Source: Methylomarinum vadi
Lineage (GTDB): Bacteria > Pseudomonadota > Gammaproteobacteria > Methylococcales > Methylomonadaceae
Assembly: GCF_000733935.1 (NCBI RefSeq)
Contig: NZ_JPON01000001.1
Span: forward strand, 3,980,623 to 4,044,622
Reading direction: 5' to 3'
Length of the DNA stretch: 64,000 nucleotides
A model generated the notes under the pieces. It saw nothing but the letters and a program-made list of their open reading frames with translations, was not told the DNA's origin and searched no databases. A program made the translations under genes and the position numbers. Of the stretch, positions 33,386 to 48,553 are shown in pieces (the stretch's first letter is position 1; each line of letters begins with the position of its first letter).

Positions 33386-34706
33386 GCGCCGGGCTCTTCG
33401 TGGCGTTATGTTCGTGCTGCATAGGCATGGATTCGCCATTTTTTGACTGGGGTTTGGGCGCGATCATCTTCGCGGCGGCTTCGCGTAGTTTGGATTCCGA
33501 GTCGATTAGGAACTGCGCCGACGTCACCACTTCTTCGCCGGGTTCGATGCCGTCCAACACCGCCACTTTGCCCCCGGACGACAATCCTAGTTTGACCAAT
33601 CTCGGTTCGAAACGGCCGGGAGCGGTGACGACGAAGACCTGGTTGCGGGCGCCTGAGCGGATCACTGCCTCGGAAGGAATGGTAATGCTGTTTGCCAGGC
33701 TGCCGGCATGGATGGTGATCTCGCTGTACATTTCCGGTTTCAACAGCAGATCGGGGTTGTCGAAGGCCAAACGCACCTTGATGGTTCGCGTTCTGGCTTC
33801 GGCATAGGGGTAGATATAAGCCAAATGGCCGCTGAAAATGCGCCCCGGCACGCCGGCCAAGTGCATGTCGACAGGATCGCCCGGTTTGACCCACGGCAGT
33901 TCGTATTCGTAGATGTCGGCATAGACCCAGACCCGGGTCAGGTCGGCGATCATGTACAACTCGGTGGCGGGGGTGACATATTGGCCTTCGCGCGCGCCGA
34001 TGTTCATGACGATACCGGCAGTCGGGGAATGGATATGCAGGCTTTTACGGATTTTGTGTTGATGAATTAGGTCATGCAGTTGATGCTCCGGTACATCCAG
34101 AAGCTTTAATCGTTCCAGAGAGCTTTGCAACAGTTCTTCGGCGCCGCGGCGAATGTCCTCGAAAGGGCTTTGTTCCAGCGCTTTTAGATTGTTCAATGCC
34201 AGTAAGTATTCCTGCTGGCTGGCGACCAGTTGCGGTGAATAGATGCTGAGCAAGTCGTCGTTTTGTCGCACCCAATCGCCGGTTTTATCGACCCGAACTT
34301 CCTCGATCCAGCCTTCGGTCTTGGGGTGCAGGCGGACCAGTAGCTCTTCGTCATAACCGATGCGGCCGACCGTGCGGATGACATGGGACAGCGTTTCCCG
34401 TTTGGCTTTCGCTGTACGCACGCCGATGCTTTGCACGACGCCGCCATCGATAATGACCGTGCCGGGCGTTTCTTGCGGTCCTTTCTGCTCTTCGGCATAG
34501 ACCGGAATATAATCCATGCCCATGTCGTCCTTGGCCGGAACAGGCGAAGTGATTTCCGGGTTCATCGGATGGCGGTAGAACAACGGTCGCTTTTCGGTTC
34601 TCTCGGAATCTGTTGTGACACCCATGCGTTTGGGGGCCAACCAATAACCAACGGCCAAGCCAACAATCAGCATTAGGGTGGCGGTAATGAGCAAGGATTT
34701 ATTCAT
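33378..34706 (-). CDS. cusB: RND periplasmic adaptor, CusB type
   Basis: 442 residues: an N-terminal anchor (about 5-24), a heavy-metal-binding domain with the pattern YRHPMNPEITSP...DDMGMDYIPVY (about 45-70), lipoyl/hairpin and beta-barrel adaptor domains (GAREGQYVTPATELYMIADL; GIEPGEEVVTSAQFL), and a His/Met-bearing tail (MPMQHEHNATKSPAHD) that could bind metal. The Met/His content supports copper or silver. It overlaps cusC by 8 bp upstream and cusA by 8 bp downstream. Confidence 0.92.
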   Translation of the reverse strand: MNKSLLITATLMLIVGLAVGYWLAPKRMGVTTDSERTEKRPLFYRHPMNPEITSPVPAKDDMGMDYIPVYAEEQKGPQETPGTVIIDGGVVQSIGVRTAKAKRETLSHVIRTVGRIGYDEELLVRLHPKTEGWIEEVRVDKTGDWVRQNDDLLSIYSPQLVASQQEYLLALNNLKALEQSPFEDIRRGAEELLQSSLERLKLLDVPEHQLHDLIHQHKIRKSLHIHSPTAGIVMNIGAREGQYVTPATELYMIADLTRVWVYADIYEYELPWVKPGDPVDMHLAGVPGRIFSGHLAYIYPYAEARTRTIKVRLAFDNPDLLLKPEMYSEITIHAGSLANSITIPSEAVIRSGARNQVFVVTAPGRFEPRLVKLGLSSGGKVAVLDGIEPGEEVVTSAQFLIDSESKLREAAAKMIAPKPQSKNGESMPMQHEHNATKSPAHD

Positions 34707-35976
34707 AGATCTCTTCCTTGCCGACGGAGGCGGTGAGTTGGGCTAGGGCCTGATGCGCCTCGGCCAACGTTTTCCAATATTGGGTTTCGTAATTGAACAA
34801 CGTCACTTGGCTGCGCACCAGATTGAGAAAATCGACTTTGTTGACCTGATAGCCGGCCAGCATGGAAGAAACCGTCTGCCTGGCTTGCGGGATAATGCCG
34901 GTTTTGAACAACTGGGCCTGCTGCTTGGCACGCTGGAAATCGTTGTAAGCTTGGGAAATCTGTGCTCGCGTTCGGTTCCATTCATCACGTAGGGCGTATT
35001 TCTGTTGCATCAGTTCGCTGCTGCGTTGATCGACTGCCCGGCCTTGTTTGTCGGCGGCGAATAGCGGCACGTTCATGCTTAGCCTGAAACTGAGGAAATC
35101 GGCGCGTTCCTGCCCATTCGGCATGTCTTCCCGGCCGCCGTAATAGGCGCCGATATTGAAGTCCGGATAATAGTCCCGTTCCGCCAGTTGCAAGCGCGAT
35201 TCGGCCGCCTTGATCCGTTGTTGCTGCGCCGACAGCAATGCCCGTCGCTGTTCCGCGGTGGTATACAAGGCGTCTTCTGTTTGCAAGCTGGGCAAGTTTT
35301 CCTCGGTTTGTTTCGGTAGGCGCAGTGGATGATTGGCCGGCAGGTTGAGGAGGGCATTCAATCGTGCGGCAGTGTTACGGCGGGCGCCGGATAAGGACAA
35401 TTCGTTTTCCAGCATTTTCGATAATTCCAGTTGCGCCAACAACACGTCCTGTTGTAGGCCTTCGCCGACCTCGTATTTGGTGCTGGCGATCTTAATAAAC
35501 TGGCGCAATAGATTCTGGTTGGCGGAGATGATCGCCAGCGCCCGGTCCAGATAAAACAAATTCCACCACTGTTGCTTGACTTCGCGCATCAGTTGCCAGC
35601 GCGCCTCGACGACATTGTGCGCGGCCGCTTCGGCCTCGTGTTGCGCCGTTTGCTCGCGGAGCGCCAATTTGCCGGGGAAGGGAATGGCCTGGGAAATCCC
35701 GCCCTGCAGCTGGGTCATGTTTTCCTGGCCTAAATTAAAGGTGTCGGTAGGCAGGTTCAATGCGCTGAAACTGATGACCGGATCGGGCAATGCAGCGACT
35801 TGCGGCGCAATGCTGGCCATCGCCTCGGAACGGGCTCTTAGTTGGGCCAGGTTGGGATTGTCGCGGGTGGCGAGTTGCAGGGCGGAAGAAAGGGTGACCT
35901 CATTGTTTTGTTGGGCAATCACCATACCGTTGAAAAGCAGCAAACAGAGCAAGGAAAAATAGGTGCGAATTGGCAT
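34699..35976 (-). CDS. cusC: TolC-family outer-membrane factor, CusC/CzcC type
   Basis: 425 residues with a signal peptide (MPIRTYFSLLCLLLFNGMVIAQ) and the two TolC-type repeats of long coiled coils (for example LRARSEAMASIAPQVAALPDP and LQLAERDYYPDFNIGAYYG). It would form the outer-membrane channel of the tripartite pump. First gene of the operon; its promoter must lie in 35977-36130. No metal-responsive regulator gene is adjacent. Confidence 0.9.
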   Translation of the reverse strand: MPIRTYFSLLCLLLFNGMVIAQQNNEVTLSSALQLATRDNPNLAQLRARSEAMASIAPQVAALPDPVISFSALNLPTDTFNLGQENMTQLQGGISQAIPFPGKLALREQTAQHEAEAAAHNVVEARWQLMREVKQQWWNLFYLDRALAIISANQNLLRQFIKIASTKYEVGEGLQQDVLLAQLELSKMLENELSLSGARRNTAARLNALLNLPANHPLRLPKQTEENLPSLQTEDALYTTAEQRRALLSAQQQRIKAAESRLQLAERDYYPDFNIGAYYGGREDMPNGQERADFLSFRLSMNVPLFAADKQGRAVDQRSSELMQQKYALRDEWNRTRAQISQAYNDFQRAKQQAQLFKTGIIPQARQTVSSMLAGYQVNKVDFLNLVRSQVTLFNYETQYWKTLAEAHQALAQLTASVGKEEIYE

Positions 35977-36134
35977 GGCGTCTGGCGAAATCCAATATGA
36001 TCCGGATACTATTCATTATAGTCGTATACATCACCGTCTAGGACATAAAGTACGAAAAACCGAGGTCAGCGCTGAAGTGGTTGATTCGGAAAACCATATC
36101 CGTAAAGCGGGCATTTAATTTTGTGGCATAAAAC

Positions 36135-36155
36135 CGCAATAAATCGAGTATTGCG
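36135..36155 (-). terminator. Possible weak terminator after the MaoC-like gene
   Basis: On the minus strand a 7-bp perfect stem (CGCAATA/TATTGCG, 7-nt loop) lies 38 bp after the MaoC-like stop and is followed by GTTTTATG. The stem is AT-rich and the T-run short, so strength is doubtful. The rest of the 35977-36192 spacer holds the cusC promoter region with no clear operator. Confidence 0.35.
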
Positions 36156-36192
36156 CTCCAATCAAGGGTTGTTGAAGAACACTAGTTTATTG

Positions 36193-37089
36193 TTAGCCTG
36201 ATTTCAGGATATTTTGTAACGATGTCAGGGAAATGATGCCCCGATAAAGAATTCGGTTATCCCGTATTAAGCCGTAGCATTCATAGGAATCGGCTTGTTG
36301 CGGTATTTCCTTGGCCAGTATGTGAAGGACATCATTGCTCTTTAATTGACGCAGCCAAACGCGATCGATGGAAATCTTGTGTGTCGTATAAACCATCGGA
36401 TTTTCCTCGAAATCATGTTTATTTTTTAACGCTTTTTCCAACAATGCGCAGGAAATGAGACTGCAGGGAAATATTTCCGGAAAATTGGCTTTATTATTAA
36501 GTTCATCGAAGAACAACGATTGGTCGGTAAAAGAACCGCATAAAAAGTTTTTGGCATTGCTGGTGTTCATGAATTTGCGTTTTAGGAAAAATCCGTGTTC
36601 TTGCAGATAGTTCCGGTCTGGCAATAGACGTAAGTTGCCGAAAGTGGAGATATTTTTATCGGACAGAAAAAGCGGTTCAAACGACTCTTTTTTATAGCCC
36701 ATCAGCGCCAGACGTCCATCGGTTTTAACCGCTACACGGTTGCTTAATACGGTTTTTCCATCGTTTTCAGCGAGTTGCGATTTTTTGATATCGACTGTGA
36801 CCTGTTCGCCGGGTTTAACCGCATTGGCAAAAGTGAATTGATAATTACTGTAACGCAGTGCTTTTTCATGAATCAGAGATATTTCGTTGTTGAGCTCGCG
36901 GAAATCGGTAATTTGCTTTTCAACCAACGAAACCAGCTGGAATCCAAGCACTATAGGCCCGTTGAAAGGATTGTTTTTAATGTGATGCCAGTTATGCGGG
37001 TCGTGGAATAGATTGAAATCATCCGTTGCATTACGGGCGACATCGATATGAATTTGCTGAAAGCAAAATTCCGGATTAATTTCATTCAT
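36193..37089 (-). CDS. Double-hotdog MaoC-like acyl hydratase/thioesterase-type protein
   Basis: 298 residues that look like two hotdog folds in tandem. The first half has a hydratase-2-like pattern, ATDDFNLFHDP (residues about 17-27), followed by FNGPIVLGFQL, as in MaoC dehydratases acting on acyl-CoA or acyl-ACP. The second half ends VWLRQLKSNDVLHILAK...YECYGLIRDN, typical of the hotdog strand order. Substrate and pathway are unknown. It stands alone with a 500-bp divergent spacer, within 1.5-9 kb of two acyltransferases, so a role in supplying or editing their acyl chains is possible (inference). Confidence 0.6.
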   Translation of the reverse strand: MNEINPEFCFQQIHIDVARNATDDFNLFHDPHNWHHIKNNPFNGPIVLGFQLVSLVEKQITDFRELNNEISLIHEKALRYSNYQFTFANAVKPGEQVTVDIKKSQLAENDGKTVLSNRVAVKTDGRLALMGYKKESFEPLFLSDKNISTFGNLRLLPDRNYLQEHGFFLKRKFMNTSNAKNFLCGSFTDQSLFFDELNNKANFPEIFPCSLISCALLEKALKNKHDFEENPMVYTTHKISIDRVWLRQLKSNDVLHILAKEIPQQADSYECYGLIRDNRILYRGIISLTSLQNILKSG

Positions 37090-37590
37090 CTGCTGTTCTC
37101 CTGCAACAAGAAGAATAAGAATTTTAATCTGTTACCGTCTATACTAACGCTGAAAGGGCTTCGGATTAACTGCTAAATCCAAGTTGATAAGCGTGTCCTT
37201 TCTTCGCGTTCACCATAAAAGTAGAACCGTAAGTATTTTTTGGCCATAGGGCATTAGTACGAAGTTTAGCGAAACAAAATCAGAAAGTTAGTTTTTTAAG
37301 GTATTTAGTATGGCAACCTTGTCACGACTATTCTTTTAAGAATTTCGGGCAAAAGCGTTTAGATGTTGTGCTAAGGGGATAACCCAACGATCGATCATAT
37401 CATTGCTCATCAAAATTCGGTACCTTAAAACCTTTAACCTCCGGGAGAAGGCGGGATAAGGACAGAAAAAAACTAAATTTTGATGTGAACAGGATTAAAT
37501 TGGTTGTAAATAAAGTATCCGAAAGGAAAGTAAATCGTAATGGTCAATTCGCGACAATTATCGGATTGAATATAGAAGGAGGGGAATGGT
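37090..37590. promoter_or_regulatory. 500-bp divergent spacer, MaoC-like / cNMP-binding gene
   Basis: AT-rich, without coding signal. It should hold promoters for both flanking genes. A strong ribosome site AGGAGGGG (37577-37584) marks the rightward gene. No clear repeat, operator or sigma-54 element was recognised. Confidence 0.3.
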
Positions 37591-38064
37591 TTGAAAAATT
37601 TACTGAAAAAAATTCTTGCCGCCCGACAATTGCAGGAGGGCGTGGCTTGGCATAGACGGAATTATGATGCAGGAACCGTCATCGTAAAAAAAGGCGATAT
37701 TGGTGAGTCGTTGTTCTATATTGAAACAGGGGTATTGCGGGTCACCGGCGATGTCCAAGTGAAAAATCAGAAAACCATTCAAGCCGGAGTATGCGATTTG
37801 GAAAGCGGTTCTATTTTCGGGGAAATTTGCCTGCATCAGTCACAGATTCGCACTGCGACAGTGACGGCGGCAAGCGATGTCGAATTGCTGGAAATCGAAG
37901 GGGCGGCATTTAGCGTTTATTTGGATGATAATCCTGTACTCGGCTATCTTTTCTATAAAAATCTATTTGAAATAATGATCAATCGATTGGGTATGGCCAA
38001 TCGAAGGATAGAAAACCTGACCGCCTGGGGATTAAAGGTGCGAGGCGTCGATAGTGATTTTTGA
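37591..38064 (+). CDS. Stand-alone cyclic-nucleotide-binding-domain protein
   Basis: 157 residues forming one Crp-type cNMP-binding domain with no DNA-binding helix-turn-helix. The phosphate-binding cassette is intact in pattern: FGEICLHQSQIRTATVTA, with the Gly-Glu and the Arg followed by Ala-Thr (about residues 81-100). The start is TTG at 37591, six bases after AGGAGGGG; the nearer ATG at 37586 hits a stop after two codons. It may sense cAMP or c-di-GMP and act on a partner protein. Which partner is unknown; the closest genes are the MaoC-like and acyltransferase genes. Confidence 0.75.
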   Translation: MKNLLKKILAARQLQEGVAWHRRNYDAGTVIVKKGDIGESLFYIETGVLRVTGDVQVKNQKTIQAGVCDLESGSIFGEICLHQSQIRTATVTAASDVELLEIEGAAFSVYLDDNPVLGYLFYKNLFEIMINRLGMANRRIENLTAWGLKVRGVDSDF

Positions 38065-38393
38065 CCGTGATTGGTTCAACTTTTTCTGTTATGAATCGAA
38101 AATTTCGCCGTATGGATTGATTTTGAAAAGTTATTTGAGCAAAAAAAAACATGGAGTTGCGGCAAAGAATGCAAAAATCCAGAGGCAATGGATTGAGCTA
38201 AATTATAATTTTCATGTGGTTTGAATTGAACCGGTGTGGGCTAGGGCAAACCGATCGTTTGGTAAAAAGTCCCTTCATCAAAGCGCAAATTAAGGCTCAT
38301 TTTTGTTTGATGAACATTCCGGATTGTTGACAGGGAGATCTAAATGGGCAGTGAAAGTGTATTTCCATACGGAAAACATTATTTTGGGGAAGC
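38065..38393. promoter_or_regulatory. Spacer before acyltransferase 1
   Basis: 329 bp, AT-rich, no coding signal. It should carry the acyltransferase promoter; GGGGA lies just before the ATG. I searched for a -24/-12 pair with correct spacing and found none. Confidence 0.25.
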
Positions 38394-39143
38394 ATGATGA
38401 ATGAAAATTCGAGTATCACGAAAAATTTTCAGGACTACTTTTCGGTAGAGTTTGCTAAAACATCGGAACAAAAAAGCAAAGTTTACGGTGTTAGATATAG
38501 GGTTTATTGCGACGAATTTCATTACGAGAAGGTCGATAAATATCCACAGCAACAGGAAACCGACGAATACGATGATTTTTCCTTGCATTGTTTGATAACT
38601 CACAAAGCTAGCGGATTACCCGCCGGTTGCGTGCGGTTGGTTCCTGCTTTCGATAATAATGGCGCACCATGTCAGCTTCCCCTTGAACAACATTGCCAAG
38701 ATAGTCTCGATCAAGAATTTATCGATAACATGAATTTAGATAGATCTACAATCTGTGAAATATCCCGATTGGCTGTCGATAGAACATTCCGCAAACGTTC
38801 CGGGGAAACACTCACCCGTTTTGGGCAAATAGAAGGACTGGATTTTTCGAAACAGGAACAACGAACCTTTTCCCTCATCGCCGTCGCCGCATTTCTGGCG
38901 GCCACCGCCATGACGGATATCAGCGGAAAAACGAATGTTTTCGCCATGATGGAACCTTTTTTGCCTAGATTGATGAAACGCTCAGGTATCGTATTCAATA
39001 AGGTTGGTCATGATATGGATTACCATGGCATCAGGGCCCCCTATTTTATCCAGACTCAGTCAGCCCTTGATAACATGCAGGCGGATTTAAAAGAGTTGTA
39101 TCGATGGATTTTTGAGCAAATCGAAATAGGGGATCGTTTGTAA
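38394..39143 (+). CDS. PEP-CTERM/exosortase-associated acyltransferase (paralog 1)
   Basis: 249 residues of the LuxI/FeeM-like GNAT family that occurs with exosortase systems. Visible family features: VRYRVYCDEFHYE (about 28-40), DDFSLHCLITH (about 61-71), the core GCVRLVPAF, LPLEQHC and EISRLAVDR. Such enzymes join an acyl chain from acyl-ACP to an amine, as LuxI does with S-adenosylmethionine and FeeM with tyrosine; the substrate here is unknown. A second copy lies at 45.3 kb. No exosortase gene is in the window. Confidence 0.8.
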   Translation: MMNENSSITKNFQDYFSVEFAKTSEQKSKVYGVRYRVYCDEFHYEKVDKYPQQQETDEYDDFSLHCLITHKASGLPAGCVRLVPAFDNNGAPCQLPLEQHCQDSLDQEFIDNMNLDRSTICEISRLAVDRTFRKRSGETLTRFGQIEGLDFSKQEQRTFSLIAVAAFLAATAMTDISGKTNVFAMMEPFLPRLMKRSGIVFNKVGHDMDYHGIRAPYFIQTQSALDNMQADLKELYRWIFEQIEIGDRL

Positions 39144-39415
39144 ACCGCATTCAATCGGATGTGATTGTATTGAACTAATCCAAAAATTTCATAACTTAAA
39201 TTAGTTCAACATGAAGGTAAAATGATGTTCTTGATATTTTAGGATTGGACTAGGAAACGATAAAGAATGAGAATGCGCTAATCCGTCTTTAATTTGTTGT
39301 AGTTGATTGAAGCATTTAAATTTCTTAACCGTTTTTTGTCTCCAATGGTGTTTCGTGTCGAATATTATCGCATTAAATTCTTTAAAACTGTTCGGACTGT
39401 AATCTTAGCCTGTTG

Positions 39416-39440
39416 TTGCAAGTAGGTATTCTGCTTGCAA
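39416..39440. promoter_or_regulatory. Inverted repeat upstream of the TPR gene
   Basis: TTGCAAG (39416-39422) and CTTGCAA (39434-39440), perfect 7-bp arms around an 11-bp spacer, 54 bp before the TPR gene start. The spacing of about one and a half helical turns between arm centres fits a dimeric regulator site or a leader hairpin. The rest of the 39144-39494 spacer is AT-rich and featureless. Confidence 0.4.
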
Positions 39441-39494
39441 AGCTGTAATTCATAAAAAATGCCAGTCATGTTTAAACTTTTAATATGAGTCCCT

Positions 39495-41192
39495 ATGAAA
39501 AAAACTATTAACAGAATTGTTAGCTCCATCTTGTTACGCCAACTCGCCACATTTGGCATCTTTTTGATGCTAACACAACCGACGTTCTCGGCAACTTTTG
39601 AGGTTTTTGACGAATCAGGGACGTCGAATGAAATGGAATTTGAGCATTTCAACTCGGACGATCCTTTTCCCGACTATTTAGGAAGTCTGGAAACCGATTC
39701 CACGGAACTCGAGCATCATTATGAGACTGTTGTCAAAATGATTAAGCAAAAGCATGTAAAAGAGGCTCGAGAAAAAATTGAAGCATTGTTTAAACAATAT
39801 CCTAATCAGTCTCTTTTCTATGGTCTTAGTGCAACATTAGACGTAATGGAAAACAACAAACCTGCAGCTCGGAAAAATCTACTCAGGGCAATCGAAATGA
39901 ATCCCAACGATCAACGTGCGCTAGTTAGCTTAGCGATGTTGGAGTTAGGAGAAAACCAGTTGGATCAAGCCCATTATTACGCCAAGCGTGCGTTAGTTAT
40001 TAACGATAAATTCCAGACTCCTTATTTCGTGTTGGCCGATATCGCTAATAAACAGCACGATAAGGTAGCGCTGGAACAATGGCTAAAATCCGCTTACCAG
40101 AAAGCCCGGGGGGCGATAAACAGCGAAATCAAAGCTGCCGCAGCACTTGGTCAATTTTATCTGGCACGTAAACAGGCTCCGGCATTTCTTGCTCTCGCCG
40201 AAGAGTTCGTACAACGTGAGCCAAATAATAGCCGCGTGTTGTTTTTGCTTTCGCAGGCTCAAATCGCTAATAGACAATTTTTGGATGCCGAACACACGCT
40301 AAAAAAACTGATTGAGGAGGAAAAACAGGATATTCAAAGTCGGTTTTTACTCGTCCGATTGCTGATGGGACAACCCGACCAGGAAAAAGCAATCGTTACG
40401 TTATTGGATGAAATAGCTGTCATCGCGCCAGATAATCTTCGAGTGCGCCTTCAACAAGTAGCGTTTTTAATTAAACTTGAACGTTATCAGGATGCTGAGG
40501 CATTAGTAGGTACTATAGAAAGACTTTCGCCAAAAAAAGGTTTGAGTCAAACGCTGCAAGGCAAAATCTATTCTGCGGAAGGGGACTTCGATCAATCACT
40601 CGCCAGTTATCGTAAAGCATATTCTCTGAATCCCAATGACGAATTATTGTTGAAAATGGTGGATATTTTAAATGAGCAAGGGAAAACCGGTGATGCCATT
40701 GCTTTGCTGGAAAAGGCGCTAAATAAAGATGCCAGTAATTTAACCTTCCATTTTAAATTAGCTAATATTTACGAACGGCAACAGCGTTTTGAATTGGCCA
40801 AGAAACACTATCGTTTGATGCTGAATAAAAAGCCTGATAACGTCTTAGCGATGAACAATTTAGCATGGTTGTATCTGCAGCAAAACAATCCTGGAGCCTT
40901 GGAATTAGCCGAGAAAGCGTATCGAAAAGCGCCGGAGACAGCGGCAATAGTTGACACTTACGGAACAATTTTAGCAAGACAGGGTAAGCCTGAAGAAGGC
41001 ATCGAATTATTGGAACAAGCTGTTAAGCTAGCCCCTAAGGCCGGCGATATCCATTATCATTTGGCCGAGGCTTACGCAGAAAACGGTGATTCGCAACGTG
41101 CACGCTCGATTTTACAGGCGGCTTTGCAAGGCAATCTAGATTTTTCCGAAAAGGCTGCGGCCGAAGCATTGCTGCGACGGTTGCAGCCTTGA
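39495..41192 (+). CDS. Exported TPR-repeat protein
   Basis: 565 residues with an N-terminal signal peptide (about 1-35, ending PTFSA) and at least ten tetratricopeptide repeats from about residue 80 to the end, for example LFYGLSATLDVMENNKPAA and AYRKAPETAAIVDTYGTIL. No lipobox, so probably periplasmic. TPR proteins such as PrsT are linked to exosortase loci; this one is shorter and not a lipoprotein, so PrsT is not claimed. It lies between acyltransferase 1 and a convergent flavoprotein gene, 3 bp away. Confidence 0.75.
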   Translation: MKKTINRIVSSILLRQLATFGIFLMLTQPTFSATFEVFDESGTSNEMEFEHFNSDDPFPDYLGSLETDSTELEHHYETVVKMIKQKHVKEAREKIEALFKQYPNQSLFYGLSATLDVMENNKPAARKNLLRAIEMNPNDQRALVSLAMLELGENQLDQAHYYAKRALVINDKFQTPYFVLADIANKQHDKVALEQWLKSAYQKARGAINSEIKAAAALGQFYLARKQAPAFLALAEEFVQREPNNSRVLFLLSQAQIANRQFLDAEHTLKKLIEEEKQDIQSRFLLVRLLMGQPDQEKAIVTLLDEIAVIAPDNLRVRLQQVAFLIKLERYQDAEALVGTIERLSPKKGLSQTLQGKIYSAEGDFDQSLASYRKAYSLNPNDELLLKMVDILNEQGKTGDAIALLEKALNKDASNLTFHFKLANIYERQQRFELAKKHYRLMLNKKPDNVLAMNNLAWLYLQQNNPGALELAEKAYRKAPETAAIVDTYGTILARQGKPEEGIELLEQAVKLAPKAGDIHYHLAEAYAENGDSQRARSILQAALQGNLDFSEKAAAEALLRRLQP

Positions 41193-41194
41193 TT

Positions 41195-42805
41195 TCAACT
41201 TAATCCATAACGACCTGGAGCAATAATATGGTTCGGGTCAATAGCTGATTTAATTGTTTTTAATACTTCAGGAACCGCGTTATTTTCTTCGGGAAAATTC
41301 ATTGATTGTATGCCTAAACGATAAGGGATAAATCCTAACTTACGGCCATTTTCTAGCAATTCTTTGTAACAGGCTTGTGCGCGTTCCATTTCTTCGGGGT
41401 TTTGACGGTCATAAAGAATGGGAACAGTGCTATCCCAACAACGTTCGGATAGACTGGTTAATGTAATAAGTGGTTCAATGCGGTACTTGACACAAATATT
41501 GGTCACCATGTTTACATACTCCCGAGTTAAATTCGGTTTCATAGGCACCAACGGTGAATACCATATCAAGCCACAACCATCTTGCGCTGGATTCATCGGC
41601 TTGCCATCGGGAGGTAATGTACCGGAACGCCAATACGACAAAGGCAAAGCGATTTCACTTGGTTCGCCGGCGAATAATTGCATGGTTTTGTGTAACGTTC
41701 CAAGTACGTTGACTAAGTGTAAATTGCGAATTATCGGTAACGTTTGCGCCGTGCCATGCATGAATTTAACCAAACGGGGAGTAAAGAATATCAAGCGTTT
41801 GGCAACTGGCCGTAATATCTTGCGTATTTGTCCCCGTGCTGCCGCGACGATTTGTTTGTTGCCATAAATGGCGCCGACGGCAGTCCATTCCATAACCTGA
41901 TTGCGGCGCATCATTTCTTTCAAAACCGATTCCGGTATTAAACCGTCTGGTCCGAGCCGATCTTTGGGATAGGATTCGGACATTGACAGTACTCGGTGTT
42001 TGTTCATCAGATTAATCGAGCCGGTTACAGCGCCGACCTCGCGTAATACTTGACGAATTTTTTTTACCGCTAATTCCAGTTCGTCAGCTTTTTTTACACT
42101 GAAGAAAAAAGCTTCGACGCGTTCCGGTAATGGGGCCAAAGCAATAGTCATTTGTGTAACGATACCGAAGTTGCTTTGTGATAAGAGTCCTTCGACATAA
42201 GGGCCCATACCCCATTTAAATGATTTATCGATCATTTCGCCACCTAATCCCGATAGCATGGAGCGATAGGTATCACCGTTCGGCAGCACCGCTTCCAAGC
42301 CCATCACCGCACCAAAATGATCGGCGTAAGGAGTAATGCCATAGCCCCGTTCAAAAGCATTGCCGACTAAACTGCAATCTGGGCCGGCACCGGTAACAGG
42401 AACCATAAACGGCAATCGATGTTGTTTTAGATAGGTGTCCAACATACGCTGCGTAACGCCAGGCTCTATTGTTAATAAACCGATTTCGGCGTCGAATTCG
42501 ATAATACGTTTCATGCGGGATAAATCGACTAGTACACAATCGTCCCTTGTCGGATTAGACGAGCCATAACCCCAGTTGCGACCAGTACTGTAAGGATAGA
42601 GAGGGACTTTATACTGTCCCGCTATCCTTACAATTTGTGCCACGTCCTGAGCGCTTTTAGGATAGAGTATGGCTGGAATATGGCGTTGAATGCCGATGCA
42701 ATTGGCGGCGCCAATCCGCAGGGTGTCAATATCATTTACAATGGCGTTAGTGCCCAGGGCATTTTTCCAGGCGGTAAGTGCGGCTTCAATTTGAGTGTTA
42801 GTCAT
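41195..42805 (-). CDS. Vanillyl-alcohol-oxidase/4-cresol-dehydrogenase-family flavoprotein
   Basis: 536 residues: an N-terminal FAD-binding type 4 domain (about 40-230; PLYPYSTGRNWGYGSSNP, GAGPDCSLVGNAFERGYG) and a C-terminal cap ending ILYDRQNPEEMERAQACY...IDPNHIIAPGRYG, which matches the VAO/PchF subfamily. Members oxidise para-alkylphenols. No cytochrome c partner, as in PchC, is adjacent. The natural substrate is unknown; neighbouring LuxI/FeeM-like acyltransferases invite the guess that it acts on an acylated phenolic amine such as an N-acyltyrosine-like product. No signal peptide is seen. Confidence 0.75.
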   Translation of the reverse strand: MTNTQIEAALTAWKNALGTNAIVNDIDTLRIGAANCIGIQRHIPAILYPKSAQDVAQIVRIAGQYKVPLYPYSTGRNWGYGSSNPTRDDCVLVDLSRMKRIIEFDAEIGLLTIEPGVTQRMLDTYLKQHRLPFMVPVTGAGPDCSLVGNAFERGYGITPYADHFGAVMGLEAVLPNGDTYRSMLSGLGGEMIDKSFKWGMGPYVEGLLSQSNFGIVTQMTIALAPLPERVEAFFFSVKKADELELAVKKIRQVLREVGAVTGSINLMNKHRVLSMSESYPKDRLGPDGLIPESVLKEMMRRNQVMEWTAVGAIYGNKQIVAAARGQIRKILRPVAKRLIFFTPRLVKFMHGTAQTLPIIRNLHLVNVLGTLHKTMQLFAGEPSEIALPLSYWRSGTLPPDGKPMNPAQDGCGLIWYSPLVPMKPNLTREYVNMVTNICVKYRIEPLITLTSLSERCWDSTVPILYDRQNPEEMERAQACYKELLENGRKLGFIPYRLGIQSMNFPEENNAVPEVLKTIKSAIDPNHIIAPGRYGLS

Positions 42806-43623
42806 GATATCTTCAAGTTGGTTAATGTTTGTTTAATTTAACATCGCCTGAAATGTTTTTTAGGTTCCCGGAATTTGCTTGTGCGCTGTTAGCTATAAGC
42901 CTTTAGATTTGTTAATAGGCGGCAAAAATCTGAGAAAGTCTAAAAAAATGATAGATTTGAAAGTTTATGTCGAGTATCAGTCATGGCTATATCCTTGTTT
43001 GGCTAATCTTCATAGAACTACAAAACGATAACGCTCATGTTGGCTTAGCTTTTCCAATGAACTTAGGTGTTTAGAGCTTCAGCTTCGCAATTGGCGCAAA
43101 AAGGCTTAAACACTGGCTAATTTGTCCAGCCAGCAATTTCGAAAATACAGTCGGCCGTTAGCTTTCGTTACTCAGTAAGGTGAGTATAGACGTCATCTTG
43201 GATAAGGAGAAATGATTGATAATTGATTTTTTACGGATAGCGGGCGTCGCGTCATAAAGTTGAGACACAATCTCCGATGGTATGCCGCCCTTTTCCAAAC
43301 ACCGAGTGGGACAAGCTTTGAGGATATTCGAGAGCAAGCGAGAAGTGTCTATCGTTATTTTATGTAACGCTATGCACAGGCCCAGTAAATTAGCCTTATA
43401 ATTCTTTTCAAGAAAGTTCACTCATTGATCGCTATTCGAATCGCTCTGACTGTCAATGAGTCTGGAGGCAAGTGGGTATTGATTCGGTTAGAACGAAATT
43501 AGGGAAGGTTCTTGGTTTGAGTGTCAGATATTTTTACATTTGATAAAGTGTTCAAGGAATAATAAATGGAGTGTCGGATAAAAAAGTTATAATAATTAAT
43601 GGTTTAAAAATATTTTAATTTTA
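42806..43623. other. 818-bp spacer, mostly without coding signal
   Basis: AT-rich sequence holding a perfect 6-bp hairpin (CTGGCT 43113-43118 / AGCCAG 43128-43133) and TACTCA/TGAGTA arms near 43168-43185. The only reading frame of note is the doubtful 87-codon frame listed separately. It may be decayed insertion material, but nothing recognisable remains. Confidence 0.3.
43158..43421 (-). CDS. Doubtful small hypothetical protein (87 aa)
   Basis: An 87-residue frame with GTG start, mildly basic, with no family recognised and no clear ribosome site. Composition (Leu/Ile/Ser-rich) is not extreme. It sits alone in a long AT-rich spacer, so it may be a gene fragment or chance. Confidence 0.2.
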   Translation of the reverse strand: MNFLEKNYKANLLGLCIALHKITIDTSRLLSNILKACPTRCLEKGGIPSEIVSQLYDATPAIRKKSIINHFSLSKMTSILTLLSNES

Positions 43624-43639
43624 TGGCATGTAATTTGTT
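43624..43639 (+). promoter_or_regulatory. Near-consensus sigma-54 promoter of the PEP-CTERM gene
   Basis: TGGCATG-TAAT-TTGTT matches the -24/-12 consensus TGGCAYR-N4-TTGCW at all key bases but one (GT in place of GC), with correct spacing. It ends 36 bp before the PEP-CTERM gene start, preceded by a long AT-rich stretch. PEP-CTERM genes in other bacteria are controlled by RpoN with the PrsK-PrsR pair, which makes the match functional in context. Confidence 0.55.
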
Positions 43640-43674
43640 TAACGAATGTTGTATTTAAACCAGAGGAAAGTACG

Positions 43675-44526
43675 ATGAAAGCAATCAAATTAATCGCAAC
43701 AGCAGGATTATTTGCATTAGCCAGTCAGGCCAATGCACTTAATGTGGATGGAGTAGTTTTCGATCCCAATTGGGATGATGGATCTACCCCGCCAATAGAA
43801 CAAGACTTTATAGGCAAATTCGATTTCACCCAGTGGTATACAACAACCGCTAATGGAAACTCGATCGGTTCATTAGGTAACTATAACGATGCAGTAACCA
43901 TCGGAACGGTCTTTGCCACACTCGATCCAACTAGCAGTGATGCAACAGGATATGAACTTACAGGAGGGGGCGAGTTCTACAGGATCAACGATCCGTTGAT
44001 GAACGTTATTGCAGCATCATCTACTGGTGGTTCTGCAGACTCTTTTTGTCCGAGTTGTGAATTGACTTACGCATTTGGCGGCATTGGGTTAAATAAGGAT
44101 CAAACTTTTGATTTGACCAACGCGTGGGCCCGCATATACATAGATGATGGTTCAATCGATAACCTGTCCGTGCCAATCAGCTCTTTGGCCGAGGCAAATG
44201 CGGCGATCGGTGATCGAGTATGGTTGGATTTGGATATCGCTAGTTTATTCTTTACATCCGGTGATATTACTTCCGGTTTTGTTGAAGCGACATTTGATAT
44301 AATCGGCGGTACGGCGGCGGATGTGTTTGACCCTAAATCTCTAAGCTACAATGGTAGTGCGTTTTTTGGAACAGACCCCAATACTATTAATTTAGCATCA
44401 AAATATTCAAATGGGGGTAACGGCGCCGTTATTGGTAACACCACCTATGTTCCTGAGCCCGCTTCCTTGGCTCTGTTAGGCTTGGGTCTAATGGGTCTTG
44501 GTTTCAAGCGCCGGATATTCGCGTAA
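43675..44526 (+). CDS. PEP-CTERM sorting-domain protein
   Basis: 283 residues: a signal peptide (about 1-22, ending SQANA), a Gly/Ser/Thr/Asp-rich exported body with one CPSC pair (FCPSCEL, about 123-129), and a C-terminal PEP-CTERM signal: VPEPAS, a hydrophobic helix (LALLGLGLMGLGF) and KRR. Exosortase would cut at the PEP motif and the protein would be exported to the surface. Body function is unknown. It has a sigma-54 promoter, a good ribosome site (AGAGGAAAG) and its own terminator, so it is monocistronic and lies between two exosortase-associated acyltransferases. Confidence 0.9.
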   Translation: MKAIKLIATAGLFALASQANALNVDGVVFDPNWDDGSTPPIEQDFIGKFDFTQWYTTTANGNSIGSLGNYNDAVTIGTVFATLDPTSSDATGYELTGGGEFYRINDPLMNVIAASSTGGSADSFCPSCELTYAFGGIGLNKDQTFDLTNAWARIYIDDGSIDNLSVPISSLAEANAAIGDRVWLDLDIASLFFTSGDITSGFVEATFDIIGGTAADVFDPKSLSYNGSAFFGTDPNTINLASKYSNGGNGAVIGNTTYVPEPASLALLGLGLMGLGFKRRIFA

Positions 44527-44574
44527 CACAATACCGAAACTATAAATTATTACCATTAGATATTTGGTTTTAAA

Positions 44575-44607
44575 ACGCCCGTCTTAATAAAGACGGGCGT
44601 TTTTTTA
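44575..44607 (+). terminator. Rho-independent terminator of the PEP-CTERM gene
   Basis: ACGCCCGTCTT (44575-44585), loop AATA, AAGACGGGCGT (44590-44600): a perfect 11-bp stem, followed at once by a run of eight Ts. It lies 49 bp after the stop codon. Confidence 0.93.
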
Positions 44608-44610
44608 TAG

Positions 44611-45328
44611 AAAGTTCTTTGTCAGATTTCATTCCAATGCCGCCTGAGAATGTCTGACGTGCAATTCATTGACCTTTCGCCTCTAATAATGCCGCTTGCT
44701 GATTATGTAAGCGATTATTCTGTCATGTGTCGTTACCCTCGACGCAGGTGCTTTAGTCCATTCGCAAAATTATTGAATGACTGCAGGCAAGTTTTGTGGT
44801 GACCGGGGTGTTTCTATTTGATCAGAAAGAGAAGTTCCCTACATCATATTAAGCCGTATGATGCTGCCAAGTATCCCAGTGACGCAATTGAAAGTCAGTC
44901 ACAGCATTTTTAGACTTTTTCTTCTTTTTATTCCTTAACCCAAACCGGCGTCTACGGATCATTGGTGGCCTGAGCCTGTTTTACTTCATCCAGGAGGCCG
45001 CTGTCATGCCTCTGAAAGCTGTACCGTGGCCACTTGATAAATGTGATATGAAGCATAATTGGGTAGTGATTGAGTTTTTGATTACGTCTCGGCCGCTTAA
45101 CACCATGTGGATCGAGTCACGTCTCTCTTGTGAACATTGTTCGTTTGCGCCTTTCATTCCGATATCGCTATTCTTGGTTGCTTTCTAGGGGAAATATTTT
45201 AGATAGCAACTAGAATGAATCTCAGTTAAGAAAAATTTAATGTTTCCTTGATTTAATGGACCAAAGTTAATTATTCGGTTTAAGTCCGGATTAAAGGGTC
45301 CTTTTTTTAATTTTATTGGGTAAATGTT
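44611..45328. other. 718-bp spacer before acyltransferase 2
   Basis: Mostly without coding signal. A 60-codon frame at 45006-45188 has a good AGGAGG eight bases before its ATG, but the product (MPLKAVPWPLDKCDMKHNW...) resembles nothing known and composition is ordinary, so it is not called as a gene. The promoter of acyltransferase 2 should lie near 45190-45310. I found no sigma-54 element. Confidence 0.3.
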
Positions 45329-46060
45329 ATGTTTGACGATTATTTCGATGTTTATTTGGCCGATACAGCCGAAGGAAGAGAAGAACATTTTAAATTGCGT
45401 TATCAAGTTTATTGCGAAGAAATGGGATTCGAAGACAAGAATAATTTTTCGTCGGAACAAGAAAAAGACCGCTGGGACGACAATGCTGTGCATTTTTTAG
45501 TCAGACATAAAGAGACGAAACAATGGGTGGGGGCGATGCGCATGGTGTTCAAACAAGATGGTGCCTTACCTTTGCAAGAGCACTGTTCGTTAAACACTCC
45601 TCATGAATCTAATAATATCGATATCGAGATTTCCCGGCTTTGTCTGGTCAAGGAAATCCGTAGGAGAAAAACCGACGAGGAACCGCCTTTGGGATTGAAC
45701 GGCAAGGCCGACATGCCGGCACAAGGTAAAAATGTCATAGATTTTTACAATCGTAGAAAAATCAATCAAAGTTTGATTTGGGGGTTGTTTAGAGCGGCCA
45801 GTATCTATAGCGAAGAAAAAAATATTGATAATTGGTATTTTTTAAGTACGAAGGCCTTGGCTCGTATTATCAGTAGGGTAGGTGCAAAAATGAGCTTAGT
45901 TGGGAATGGGTGTCACTATCGAGGAGAGCGCTATCCATTCAAAATCGATCTGAATGAAGTGTTAAGTAATGATATTTGGACAAATGATTTTAAAAAAGGA
46001 TATCGATTATTTTCCGAGTTGGATGATGAAGTAGCACTGCCGCAAGAGCAAGCCGCCTAG
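45329..46060 (+). CDS. PEP-CTERM/exosortase-associated acyltransferase (paralog 2)
   Basis: 243 residues, a paralog of the gene at 38.4 kb: FKLRYQVYCEEMGFE (about 25-39), DDNAVHFLVRH (about 51-61), GAMRMV, LPLQEHC and EISRLCLVKEIRRRK all align with it, but identity outside these motifs looks low. LuxI/FeeM-like GNAT acyltransferase; acyl donor and acceptor unknown. Paralogs that far apart in sequence suggest different substrates rather than a recent copy. It has its own terminator downstream. Confidence 0.8.
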   Translation: MFDDYFDVYLADTAEGREEHFKLRYQVYCEEMGFEDKNNFSSEQEKDRWDDNAVHFLVRHKETKQWVGAMRMVFKQDGALPLQEHCSLNTPHESNNIDIEISRLCLVKEIRRRKTDEEPPLGLNGKADMPAQGKNVIDFYNRRKINQSLIWGLFRAASIYSEEKNIDNWYFLSTKALARIISRVGAKMSLVGNGCHYRGERYPFKIDLNEVLSNDIWTNDFKKGYRLFSELDDEVALPQEQAA

Positions 46061-46182
46061 TTTGATTCCGTCGGTTCGGTTAAGGTGCTGTATTAGTTCG
46101 CATAAATTTGGTTTTCTTTAAGGCAGTATAAATTTATGCTAATTCGTTTTATTGAGTATCTGCGCCGGTAAGGGGCTTTGAG

Positions 46183-46216
46183 AGGACGGGATCCCCAGCC
46201 CGTCCTAAAGTTTTTT
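46183..46216 (+). terminator. Terminator after acyltransferase 2
   Basis: AGGACGGG (46183-46190) pairs perfectly with CCCGTCCT (46199-46206), followed by AAAG and six Ts (46211-46216). The T-run is only on the plus-strand side, so it serves the acyltransferase transcript, 123 bp after its stop. Confidence 0.7.
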
Positions 46217-46309
46217 ATATCCACAATTAGTCGAAAATGATGGACTAGCCTCTATCGTTCTGTAAGCTTGCTGGATTACGGTAATGCAGGTCGAGTCAGT
46301 CAACCAAGT

Positions 46310-47353
46310 CTAACGATAAATCACGTCGGATTTACCTCGGCCAACAACGATTTCTCCCACCTTAAAAACTCTTTCTCCTTGTTCCGTCAACGTAGCTATG
46401 GATTGCTCGGCATCTTCCTCTGCCACGCAAACAATCATGCCAATGCCGCAGTTGAACGTGGTCAGCATGTCGGCTTGCGTGATGTTGCCTTGTTGTTGCA
46501 GCCATTTGAAAACTTCCGGCATTTCCCAGCTGGACAGGTCGATTGCCGCGCTGAGGCCTTCCGGCAATACCCGGGGCAGGTTTTCGGTGATGCCGCCGCC
46601 GGTGATATGGGCCAGGGCATGCACCGGGACTTGTTTGAACAGTTCCAGCAACGGTTTGACATAAATGCGGGTTGGTTCCAGCAGCGTTTCGCCGAGTGGT
46701 TTGCCGTTGAAGTCATCGGTCAGGGAAGCATGGCTTTTCTCGATGATTTTGCGGATCAACGAATAGCCGTTGGAATGCGGGCCGGAAGAGGCGATGCCGA
46801 TCAGTTTGTCGCCGGCTTTGACTTTACTGCCGTCCAGTATGTTAGCTTTTTCGACGATGCCGACACAAAATCCGGCCAGGTCGTAATCGCCTTCGGCGTA
46901 CATGCCCGGCATTTCCGCGGTTTCGCCGCCAACCAAGGCGGCGCCTGCTTGTTCGCAGCCTTTGCCGATCCCCTCGACGACTGCCGCCGCCGTGTCGACA
47001 TCAAGTTTGCCGGTCGCGAAATAGTCCAAAAAAAACAAGGGTTCTGCGCCTTGCACGATGATGTCGTTAACGCACATGGCGACCAGGTCGATGCCGACGG
47101 TATTATGAATGCCGAGTTCGAGCGCCAGTTTCAATTTGGTGCCGACGCCGTCGGTTCCGGAAACCAGGATCGGGTTTTTGTAGCGGTCGAGCGGCAGTTC
47201 GAACATCGAGCCGAATCCGCCTAGTCCGGCCATGACGCCGGCCGTCCGGGTTTTCGCCGCGATCGGTTTAATGCGCTCGACTAGCGCGTTACCGGCTTCG
47301 ATATCGACGCCGGCACTTTTATAATTCAGGCTATCTTGCTTTTGCTCGCTCAA
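46310..47353 (-). CDS. purM: Phosphoribosylformylglycinamidine cyclo-ligase (AIR synthetase)
   Basis: A 347-residue purine-pathway enzyme making AIR from FGAM with ATP. Signatures include [17 protein letters not shown] near the start, [22 protein letters not shown] and [14 protein letters not shown]. Normal length. The start is TTG at 47353 (L-S-E-Q-K-Q) with no ATG nearby; the sequence after it matches the usual PurM N-terminus. Divergent from the DUF2066 gene, 105 bp apart. Confidence 0.97.
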
Positions 47354-47458
47354 TGTCCAGTACTCTACTAGCTAAAGTTAAGGTTAGAATAACCGCTATT
47401 GTACTATAGATTCCGCTAAAGGAAGATGGTTGGACAGTCGAAAGGAGTTTGTGCTTAA

Positions 47459-48553
47459 GTGAGAAGTTTAACGCTTTGCTTGGAGAAAGAGTTGAGAGGG
47501 TTTAGCGCGTTATTAATGCTGGCGCTTTTGCTGGGTGTCGGCAATGTTTGGGCGGTGGAAGTCAAGGGTTTGTATGAGACCGAAGTGTTGGCAAAAAGCC
47601 GTTCCAACGAGGACCGCAATAAGGCGATTCGGGAAGCCCTGGCCGTCGTTCTCGGGCGGGTCGTGGCAGCCGACAAGGTCATGGAGACGCCGGTGGTGAA
47701 AACGGCGCTTGCCGGAGCCTCCCATTATGTGCGTCAATTTCAATATGCGATGATATCCAGCAAGTGGCAGCGCGATGAAAGGTCCCGCTTGATGCGGGTT
47801 TTGTTCGATGAGCAACAATTGCTCGAATTATTGCGTTCAGGCAATGTCGGGATCTGGAGCGAGATTAGGCCCGAAACCTTGGCTTGGCTGGTGGTCGAGC
47901 GTCAAGATAAGCTCCGTTTTTACGAGGCCGATAGCATGCCGGAACTGGAAAACGCCCTGACACGCGCCGCTCGCATAAAAGGCTTGCCGCTTATTTTTCC
48001 GATGTTGGACCTCGAAGAGCAGCAAAGAATTTCGGTCAGCGAAGTGTTGAGTAACGATTCGACACAATTATTGGCCGCGTCCGAGCGTTACGATGTGGTT
48101 TCGGTGCTCGCGGGGCGCCTGGTGGAAAAAGGGAAATGCTGGGAAGCTGAATGGGCTTTGTATTTCGATGAAAAAATCGAACAATGGGCTACTCCTTGCG
48201 CAGCGCTTTCGGAGGTGACCTTATCCGGCATGCAGGGAGTCTACGACGTGTTGTCGAAGTATTACGCGGTCAAGCCGGAAATAGCGGAAAGCGGTTTTAT
48301 CAGACTCAAAATCAAAGGCGTAAAAACGATGACCGACATGGTCAGAGTCACCGAATTTTTGCAATCCGTGGCGCTGATCAAATCGGTCAACTGGGTCAGT
48401 GTCGAGAACGGCTACAATATTTACAAGATCAAGTACGAAGGCAGTGATGTTCTGCTTGCCGAGGCGCTGACCGCCGCAAATGTGTTGGCGCCAGTGCCGG
48501 GCGCCGAACTGAGTCGCTATGAATTGAAATATCGGCTGGTACGAGATGAATAG
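47459..48553 (+). CDS. DUF2066-domain exported protein
   Basis: 364 residues with an N-terminal hydrophobic export segment (about 15-35, SALLMLALLLGVGNVWAVE) and a DUF2066 domain; KNRSNEDRNKAIREALAVVLGRV-like sequence near residue 45 is typical. The function is unknown. Genes of this family often neighbour purM in gammaproteobacteria, as here. The start is GTG at 47459 after a weak AAGG-like site. Confidence 0.75.
   Translation: MRSLTLCLEKELRGFSALLMLALLLGVGNVWAVEVKGLYETEVLAKSRSNEDRNKAIREALAVVLGRVVAADKVMETPVVKTALAGASHYVRQFQYAMISSKWQRDERSRLMRVLFDEQQLLELLRSGNVGIWSEIRPETLAWLVVERQDKLRFYEADSMPELENALTRAARIKGLPLIFPMLDLEEQQRISVSEVLSNDSTQLLAASERYDVVSVLAGRLVEKGKCWEAEWALYFDEKIEQWATPCAALSEVTLSGMQGVYDVLSKYYAVKPEIAESGFIRLKIKGVKTMTDMVRVTEFLQSVALIKSVNWVSVENGYNIYKIKYEGSDVLLAEALTAANVLAPVPGAELSRYELKYRLVRDE

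Follow-up and report, generated by a model that had tools for sequence, protein, structure and literature searches.

The window analysed here, a stretch of 64,000 nucleotides from the one-contig, 4.34 Mb genome of Methylomarinum vadi, contains at positions 36193–46060 a locus of seven genes, encoding two LuxI/FeeM-like N-acyl amino acid synthases (NAS_A and NAS_B), a small cyclic-nucleotide-binding (cNMP-binding) protein, a hotdog-like protein, a tetratricopeptide-repeat (TPR) protein, a flavoprotein of the vanillyl-alcohol oxidase/p-cresol methylhydroxylase (VAO/PCMH) type and a PEP-CTERM protein. We consider that this locus probably specifies an accessory pathway for N-acyl-tyrosine that belongs with the PEP-CTERM-linked systems, is controlled by a cyclic nucleotide and includes an oxidising step of a new type. 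In our working model, NAS_A would join a fatty acyl chain, supplied as acyl-ACP or acyl-CoA, to an aromatic amino acid, for which tyrosine is the likeliest candidate, and NAS_B would carry out the same reaction, perhaps with another acyl or amino acid preference. The small cNMP-binding protein would bind cyclic AMP or cyclic GMP and switch NAS_A on, as reported for the cNMP domain of NasP. The flavoprotein would bind the free phenol and abstract a hydride at its benzylic position; the resulting p-quinone methide might end up as the 2,3-dehydro, the beta-hydroxy or the decarboxylated (enamide) form of N-acyl-tyrosine. In this way the enzyme would take over a task for which related pathways use an oxidase of the nitroreductase family together with a ThiF cyclase. 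Tailoring of the acyl chain may fall to the hotdog protein, and the TPR and PEP-CTERM proteins may tie the product to a cell-surface/exopolysaccharide programme. The association of NAS with PEP-CTERM systems, NasP itself and NAS pathways that include a flavin oxidase are already known; new here are the VAO-type flavoprotein tied to NAS, the split cNMP module and, in relatives, overlapping gene sets that include nitroreductase and/or ThiF genes.

The proposed oxidising step centres on the flavoprotein (gene at 41195–42805, minus strand), a putative N-acyl-tyrosine oxidase. Its sequence matches FAD_binding_4 at 86 bits (cut-off 26.4) and, in phmmer searches, p-cresol methylhydroxylase (E 2e-65) and bacterial vanillyl-alcohol oxidases, with E values of 2e-65 to 2e-72 across these matches. 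Its structure model (predicted local distance difference test, pLDDT, 89) superposes on 1dii_A with a Z score of 41.9 and a root-mean-square deviation of 2.0 over 498 residues, as against a Z score of about 31 for D-lactate dehydrogenases. The VAO/PCMH fold extends over the whole chain, at 24–29% identity to p-cresol methylhydroxylase, vanillyl-alcohol oxidase and eugenol oxidase, and the sequence-only reading was right to call the protein a VAO/4-cresol-dehydrogenase-type flavoprotein. With these enzymes it also shares the Tyr/Tyr/Arg phenol pocket: Y80 aligns with PCMH Y95, and Y495-R496 with PCMH Y473-R474, residues that we take to form the phenolate-binding pocket, and none of the three varies in any of the 81 family members (window included). 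The VAO structures 5mxj (Y108F) and 5mxu (Y503F) are mutants of two such tyrosines. The site of the bacterial VAO mutation T181D, presumably the position of VAO Asp170, is a glycine (G139) here.

The second line of evidence is that the flavoprotein travels with NAS genes. In a panel of 61 related genomes only three flavoproteins of at least 42% identity were found, namely the window's own and those of G008 (66%) and G039 (42%), and each of the three has a NAS at a distance of about 0.3–2.1 kb, with the TPR gene in between in the window; the one-contig genome G039 holds NAS and flavoprotein and has no exosortase match. Of four genomes from a sample taken across the class whose NAS surroundings were inspected on account of a long NAS frame, one (G144) has a 44% identical flavoprotein divergently beside its NAS. 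When named genomes were scanned with an alignment built from the first three flavoproteins, 172 candidates were confirmed, and the best 80 of them, spanning nine named phyla, were taken as flavoprotein loci. By local profiles, a NAS is present within the locus in 61 of the 80, and in 45 of the 53 that have at least 5 kb on both sides; our first count, with the TIGR03694-type profile alone, had given 36 of 80. The distance between the two genes is at most 5 kb in 56 loci, at most 1 kb in 34 and at most 200 bp in 24; in Methylomonas koyamae (L088) it is 7.5 kb. The nearest NAS is of the TIGR03694 type in 34 and of the FeeM type in 27 of the 61 loci, although its class is unsure in L113 and L120 (TIGR03694-type at about 30–34 bits by local profiles, FeeM by Pfam), each of which also holds a clear TIGR03694-type gene; both types also occur together in L097, L098 and L101. 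The flavoproteins of L093 and L094 are identical, so the count becomes 60 of 79 if they are taken once, and the NAS-positive loci represent eight named phyla, or seven if these two loci are one organism under two names. (L093 and L094 carry the names Elusimicrobia and Omnitrophota and are possibly mis-binned.) Thirteen of the 61 NAS-positive loci are from Colwellia and many of the rest from metagenome-assembled genomes (MAGs); grouped by taxon name, 34 of 49 groups have at least one such locus. In all 13 Colwellia loci the NAS is the immediate same-strand upstream neighbour of the flavoprotein, at 20–89 bp. Counting either type anywhere in the genome, NAS is present in 77 of the 80 flavoprotein genomes compared with 42 of 229 class-sample genomes (own included). 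On a quick tree of the flavoproteins the fewest switches of partner type number six, with the starred branches alone forcing fewer and 29 of the 77 inner branches open. No paper linking a flavoprotein of the VAO type with NAS genes was found in open-licence PubMed Central.

Given that the phenol pocket is retained in the flavoprotein and that the enzyme accompanies NAS genes in several phyla, the earlier suggestion of an acylated phenol with subsequent oxidation now offers the best account of the locus, and the flavoprotein did not prove to belong to an unrelated degradation pathway. A conserved partner enzyme with readable active-site chemistry points to an oxidised phenolic lipid as the product to seek, and the flavoprotein gene provides a handle for finding that product and its role. 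Many bacteria produce N-acyl amino acids, for which connections with biofilms and exopolysaccharide have been described, but to our knowledge no reason has been established why NAS genes keep company with PEP-CTERM sorting.

How this flavoprotein relates to the known oxidising enzymes can be seen from the oxazolone-type clusters. In the accessible text of the reports, TyzABC and TrzAS are described as making tyrazolones and tryptazolones with a NAS, a nitroreductase-family flavin oxidase and a ThiF protein (PMC10404671, PMC12856293), and the dehydrotyrosine step of the stieleriacines is assigned by comparative genomics to the nitroreductase-family protein Mal15_37310 of S. maiorica together with ThiF (PMC12479983). 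The same paper gives nasY1 (Enr13x_30590 of Stieleria neptunia) as the synthase whose deletion nearly abolished stieleriacine production, and the words FAD, flavin, cresol, PEP-CTERM and exosortase are absent from its main text (PMC12479983). We had considered the flavoprotein as an established maker of the stieleriacine dehydrotyrosine, and this was rejected in view of that assignment. As far as these accounts go, the M. vadi locus has in common with the TyzABC, TrzAS, OxzAB, thalassotalic, kyonggic and stieleriacine clusters a NAS with a flavin-dependent oxidation of an N-acyl aromatic amino acid, as proposed here, but in those clusters the oxidation is carried out, or proposed to be carried out, by a nitroreductase-superfamily oxidase with a ThiF cyclase, whereas here a VAO-fold flavoprotein lies beside the NAS (PMC10404671, PMC12856293, PMC12479983).

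The oxazolone-type genes are found around NAS in relatives of M. vadi. In G001 the genes that come after a cNMP gene and a NAS_A orthologue, on the same strand, encode a protein of the nitroreductase family and a methyltransferase, with genes for a sigma-54 response regulator and a histidine kinase ahead of the group, and in G042 genes for ThiF, nitroreductase, a PEP-CTERM protein, a PrsT-like TPR protein, a NAS–cNMP fusion and a hotdog protein lie within about 8.5 kb. ThiF and nitroreductase also occur in a NAS locus of G019, and ThiF in one of G002. When the G002 ThiF was used as query at E 1e-30, no ThiF of the oxazolone kind was found in the window's genome, and such proteins were present in 20 of the 61 genomes and in neither G008 nor G039, the other panel carriers of the flavoprotein. 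A nitroreductase-superfamily oxidase is not among the seven genes of the locus, the genome elsewhere not having been searched for it. The ThiF profile matches in 10 of 52 NAS loci of relatives versus 3 of the 80 flavoprotein loci; one of the ten matches, that in L061 with 67 bits, probably reflects an ordinary MoeB-type protein. For the nitroreductase profile the counts are 6 of 52 versus 2 of 80. Because the two sets differ in taxa, these contrasts stand as a tendency only. The flavoprotein is present in 2 of the 52 NAS loci, both of which are without ThiF and nitroreductase. Single open frames with a match to the ThiF profile as well as the nitroreductase profile, resembling OxzB/TrzS fusions, were seen beside NAS at L043:7426–9396 and L045:10496–12496.

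Both acyltransferases of the locus, which had been read as diverged and exosortase-associated, are indeed members of TIGR03694 (cut-off 112 bits): NAS_A (38394–39143, plus strand) scores 233 bits and NAS_B (45329–46060, plus strand) 169 bits, and the two are about 30% identical. No third TIGR03694 match was found in the window's genome at E 0.001; its third synthase is of the FeeM type and lies far from the locus, and its two exosortase matches are both more than 1.3 Mb away. The family is matched in 43 of the 61 related genomes (36 above cut-off) and, at E 1e-20, in 30 of the 229 genomes of the class sample. Residues R34, E55, D57, D60, R81, E122, S124 and R125 (NAS_A numbering) do not vary among the 47 aligned members and are, we assume from their roles in LuxI, the LuxI-like catalytic core. 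A copy of NAS_B at 40% identity or more is present in 12 of the 61 genomes (own included), among them all eight that have NAS_A at 50% or more.

A link of NAS to PEP-CTERM/exosortase systems was reportedly drawn by Craig, Cherry and Brady in 2011. In the 61 genomes both NAS and exosortase are present in 28, NAS only in 8, exosortase only in 11 and neither in 14, a weak co-occurrence (Fisher p 0.014, ignoring kinship). The suggested tie of the locus to surface-protein sorting agrees with a published association, but a direct role in sorting is unproven, since 8 of the 36 genomes with an above-cut-off NAS (one of the eight 77% complete) have no exosortase match. In the accessible text of PMC11072679, disruption of the ExoAT synthase of Methylomonas sp. 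LW13 left the cells without a normal polysaccharide band and without growth in a methane-gradient syringe, and complementation restored both. The locus described here differs from such PEP-CTERM/exosortase-linked NAS systems, that of LW13 included, in the addition of a VAO-type flavoprotein, a split cNMP module and a hotdog protein.

The gene for the cNMP-binding protein (37591–38064, plus strand; 157 residues) lies just upstream of NAS_A, and its product matches the cNMP_binding domain (PF00027) at 57.5 bits (cut-off 27.5). Among the eight genomes with NAS_A at 50% identity or more (own included), this gene is immediately upstream of NAS_A in seven, the exception being G015. The intergenic distance is 329 bp in the window and ranges in the remaining six from 73 bp to an overlap of 4 bp. 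The window's protein retains the cassette FGE...RTATV, and the form G-(E/D)...R-x-A is kept in eight aligned stand-alone relatives and in fusions of the cNMP domain to NAS. Such fusions, in which a FeeM-type synthase and a cNMP domain are both above the Pfam cut-offs in one chain, occur naturally in seven relatives (G002, G010, G011, G019, G021, G036 and G042). In the genus mate G002 and in G042 the fusion has as neighbours hotdog (a remnant in G002), PrsT-like TPR, ThiF, PEP-CTERM (called in G042 by a local profile only) and regulator genes, and the cluster of G002 also contains exosortase A. Clardy and Brady are said to have reported in 2007 that cyclic AMP directly activates NasP, an N-acyl amino acid synthase. 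From the adjacency of the two genes, the fusions in relatives and this published activation, the simplest reading would be that the cNMP gene and NAS_A are a split version of NasP and that a cyclic nucleotide activates NAS_A at this locus, a connection that the sequence-only reading had not drawn. In both systems a NAS would be placed under a cyclic-nucleotide-binding module; in NasP the domain is part of the NAS chain, whereas here it is a separate protein, and chains that combine the two were found in relatives and not in the window.

Other second-messenger modules occur beside NAS in the flavoprotein loci. At L132:13823–15109 a FeeM-type synthase is fused to PilZ, 2.2 kb from the flavoprotein gene, and this fusion likely places the synthase under cyclic di-GMP (c-di-GMP) control; as far as the accessible published text goes, a similar layout is indicated by homology model for the two-domain Nas343 and Nas354. 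At L148:4485–6458 a cNMP-binding domain is fused to a patatin-like phospholipase, near NAS and flavoprotein. We suggest that second-messenger control of the synthase is a recurring theme with swappable parts, namely a split cNMP protein, a fused cNMP domain or a fused PilZ domain. More tentatively, and at somewhat under an even chance, the VAO-fold flavoprotein family, which recurs beside NAS in seven named phyla (several of them MAG-only), could be a dedicated N-acyl-tyrosine lipid oxidase, a second and unrelated solution to the TyzC/OxzB oxidation that would serve TIGR03694-type and FeeM-type synthases alike, under cyclic-nucleotide or, with the PilZ fusion of L132, c-di-GMP control.

A number of our findings weigh against the proposed tyrosine-oxidising pathway. 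Conservation of Y80 was partly built in by the search pattern STGRNWGY, that of Y495 and R496 not. p-Cresol methylhydroxylase proper has a Tyr384-linked FAD and a cytochrome c subunit, and the locus enzyme falls outside that description: a gap-free extension of the alignment over a few more residues places the flavin-linking Tyr384 at N405, in a column that holds D in 32, N in 29, S in 13, H in 5 and G in 2 of the 81 members, and there is no cytochrome c gene among the seven of the locus, the rest of the genome not having been searched for one. On these two counts, and in its linkage to NAS genes, the enzyme differs from p-cresol methylhydroxylase, vanillyl-alcohol oxidase and eugenol oxidase. 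In three of the four class-sample genomes inspected on account of a long NAS frame, the flavoprotein is absent around the NAS, and 19 of the 80 flavoprotein loci have no NAS in reach, including those of the near relatives Methylomonas fluvii and Methylomonas sp. WSC-7; in six of these 19 genomes a TIGR03694 member is present elsewhere (in M. fluvii, L086, the nearest is about 49 kb from the flavoprotein, if contig C1 is scaffold1) and in 10 of the other 13 a FeeM-type synthase, which leaves L085, L144 and L145 with no NAS anywhere in the genome. (L085 is a ‘Sphingobacteriaceae’ MAG contig whose name may disagree with its content, its flavoprotein being 73% identical to that of the window.) The flavoprotein co-exists with ThiF and nitroreductase in L093/L094 and with ThiF in L111, so these modules can be combined, and a strict replacement of ThiF/nitroreductase by the flavoprotein is rejected. 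Lastly, the genes lie on both strands with spacers of 329–869 bp (the convergent TPR and flavoprotein genes are 2 bp apart), so the locus is not a single operon.

The linkage of NAS and flavoprotein may be partly indirect, with both genes favouring PEP-CTERM/exopolysaccharide regions. That they are neighbours only through such shared accessory regions, the flavoprotein oxidising some unrelated phenol or alcohol, seems to us unlikely. The loci without NAS in reach, two of them Methylomonas, would be explained in this way, as would the presence of the PrsT-like TPR cluster in 23 of the 80 flavoprotein loci and, in 28, of a sequence cluster whose checked representative is a PEP-CTERM protein. Shared regions would account less readily for the tight same-strand arrangement of all 13 Colwellia loci, for the persistence of the link while the partner NAS switches type, or for G039 with its lack of an exosortase match; in addition, distant VAO relatives in five panel genomes have no TIGR03694 match on their contig (FeeM-type synthases were not searched for there).

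A different difficulty concerns the acceptor of the synthase. The structure model of NAS_A (mean pLDDT 93.5) is closer to acyl-homoserine lactone (AHL) synthases (Z 16–18, top 18.1; EsaI 12.4) than to FeeM (15.8), and in a sequence search of the PDB at E 0.01 the NAS_A family profile retrieves AHL synthases but misses FeeM; an acceptor other than tyrosine is therefore possible for NAS_A. The nearest structures are RpaI, TofI and BjaI, and it could be argued that NAS_A and NAS_B make an AHL-like or other amine-based signal, with the cNMP protein an unrelated regulator. We regard this as improbable, however, since papers citing Craig 2011 describe the family, in their accessible text, as N-acyl amino acid synthases (PMC11072679, PMC7293339), since a phenol-type flavoprotein at this locus and a nitroreductase-type oxidase beside the NAS_A orthologue of G001 both point to an aromatic amino acid, and since the natural fusions join NAS to the cNMP domain.

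The seven genes do not recur as a set. Neighbourhood comparison, which the sequence-only reading had proposed, found all seven in none of the 52 NAS loci of relatives and none of the 80 flavoprotein loci (some on short contigs), but pairs and triples do recur, as cNMP with NAS, as NAS with flavoprotein and PEP-CTERM, and as hotdog with cNMP and NAS. The hotdog gene (36193–37089, minus strand) is divergent from the cNMP gene, and its description as a double-hotdog, MaoC-like protein holds only in part: the likeness to MaoC is below the curated cut-off (18.3 bits; cut-off 27) and covers residues 36–110 only. It adjoins cNMP and/or NAS in G000, G003, G005 (where it is split), G015, G035 (at a contig edge), G002 (as a remnant) and G042, and close copies lie away from both in G001, G016, G020 and G026, the last two on contigs of 6–7 kb. 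In G005, G002 and G026 (L050:7884–9282, L169:7600–8058 and L175:6378–6995) the gene is split or reduced, as if often lost.

The TPR protein (39495–41192, plus strand), which on visual inspection carries an N-terminal export signal, is similar to the C-terminal half of PrsT and is likewise below the family cut-off (TIGR02917, 294.6 bits; cut-off 312.2; positions 426–898 of the 899 of the profile); relatives at 43–44% identity occur in NAS loci of G002, G019 and G015. The PEP-CTERM gene (43675–44526, plus strand) adjoins the flavoprotein gene, and its product matches PF07589 at 30.9 bits (cut-off 20.7) and TIGR02595 at 26.5 bits. A sigma-54-like site of full consensus at 43624–43639 ends 35 bases before this gene. 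Such sites are upstream of 6 of 11 picked PEP-CTERM genes versus 2 of 51 open reading frames of the window, a comparison that was chosen after looking and that counts the PEP-CTERM gene of the window on both sides, and sigma-54 activator genes are present in the clusters of G002 and G001. In the window as a whole, sites of the full consensus are not commoner than in shuffled sequence (16; shuffle mean 12.3), and the shorter consensus is found nine times versus 3.6 in shuffles, none of the nine being inside the locus.

All seven genes are open reading frames and lie, as had been noted, in visibly AT-richer DNA, at 38–45% GC compared with 52–56% in the flanks. The ten 1-kb bins from 36001 to 46000 range from 0.379 to 0.452 GC, the two bins before the locus from 0.532 to 0.563 and the four after it from 0.518 to 0.561; the lowest bin in the rest of the window is 0.455. 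The locus is bordered by a TolC-type gene (34699–35976) and by purM (46310–47353). A purM match was found in four of five genus mates; the locus gene set is missing beside all four, and on the other side of purM the next four window genes are kept in G002 and G004 and the first one only in the other two, so the locus is a variable, accessory region. That it is a decaying island whose pathway no longer works in this genome is, in our judgement, very unlikely: the low GC content, the absence of the set beside purM in all four genus mates and the broken hotdog copies of relatives would suit decay, but all seven genes are open and the conserved NAS and flavoprotein residues are intact.

Some minor features of the region may be added. 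On the locus side of purM, G005 has a TPR relative (33%) within 10 kb, and G003 has a nitroreductase gene and a ThiF gene (L186:87–2456) about 6.5–9 kb beyond purM. No RNA element above the Rfam gathering scores was found in 34000–48000 (spacers included), promoter- and terminator-like sites were not above shuffled sequence, and the repeats found are short and unremarkable. To the left of the locus, three consecutive minus-strand genes (30236–35976) encode the TolC-type outer membrane protein and two proteins that resemble, by eye and size, an adaptor and a resistance-nodulation-division (RND) pump; the RND-pump-like gene has relatives of about 22% identity beside purM in G003 and G005.

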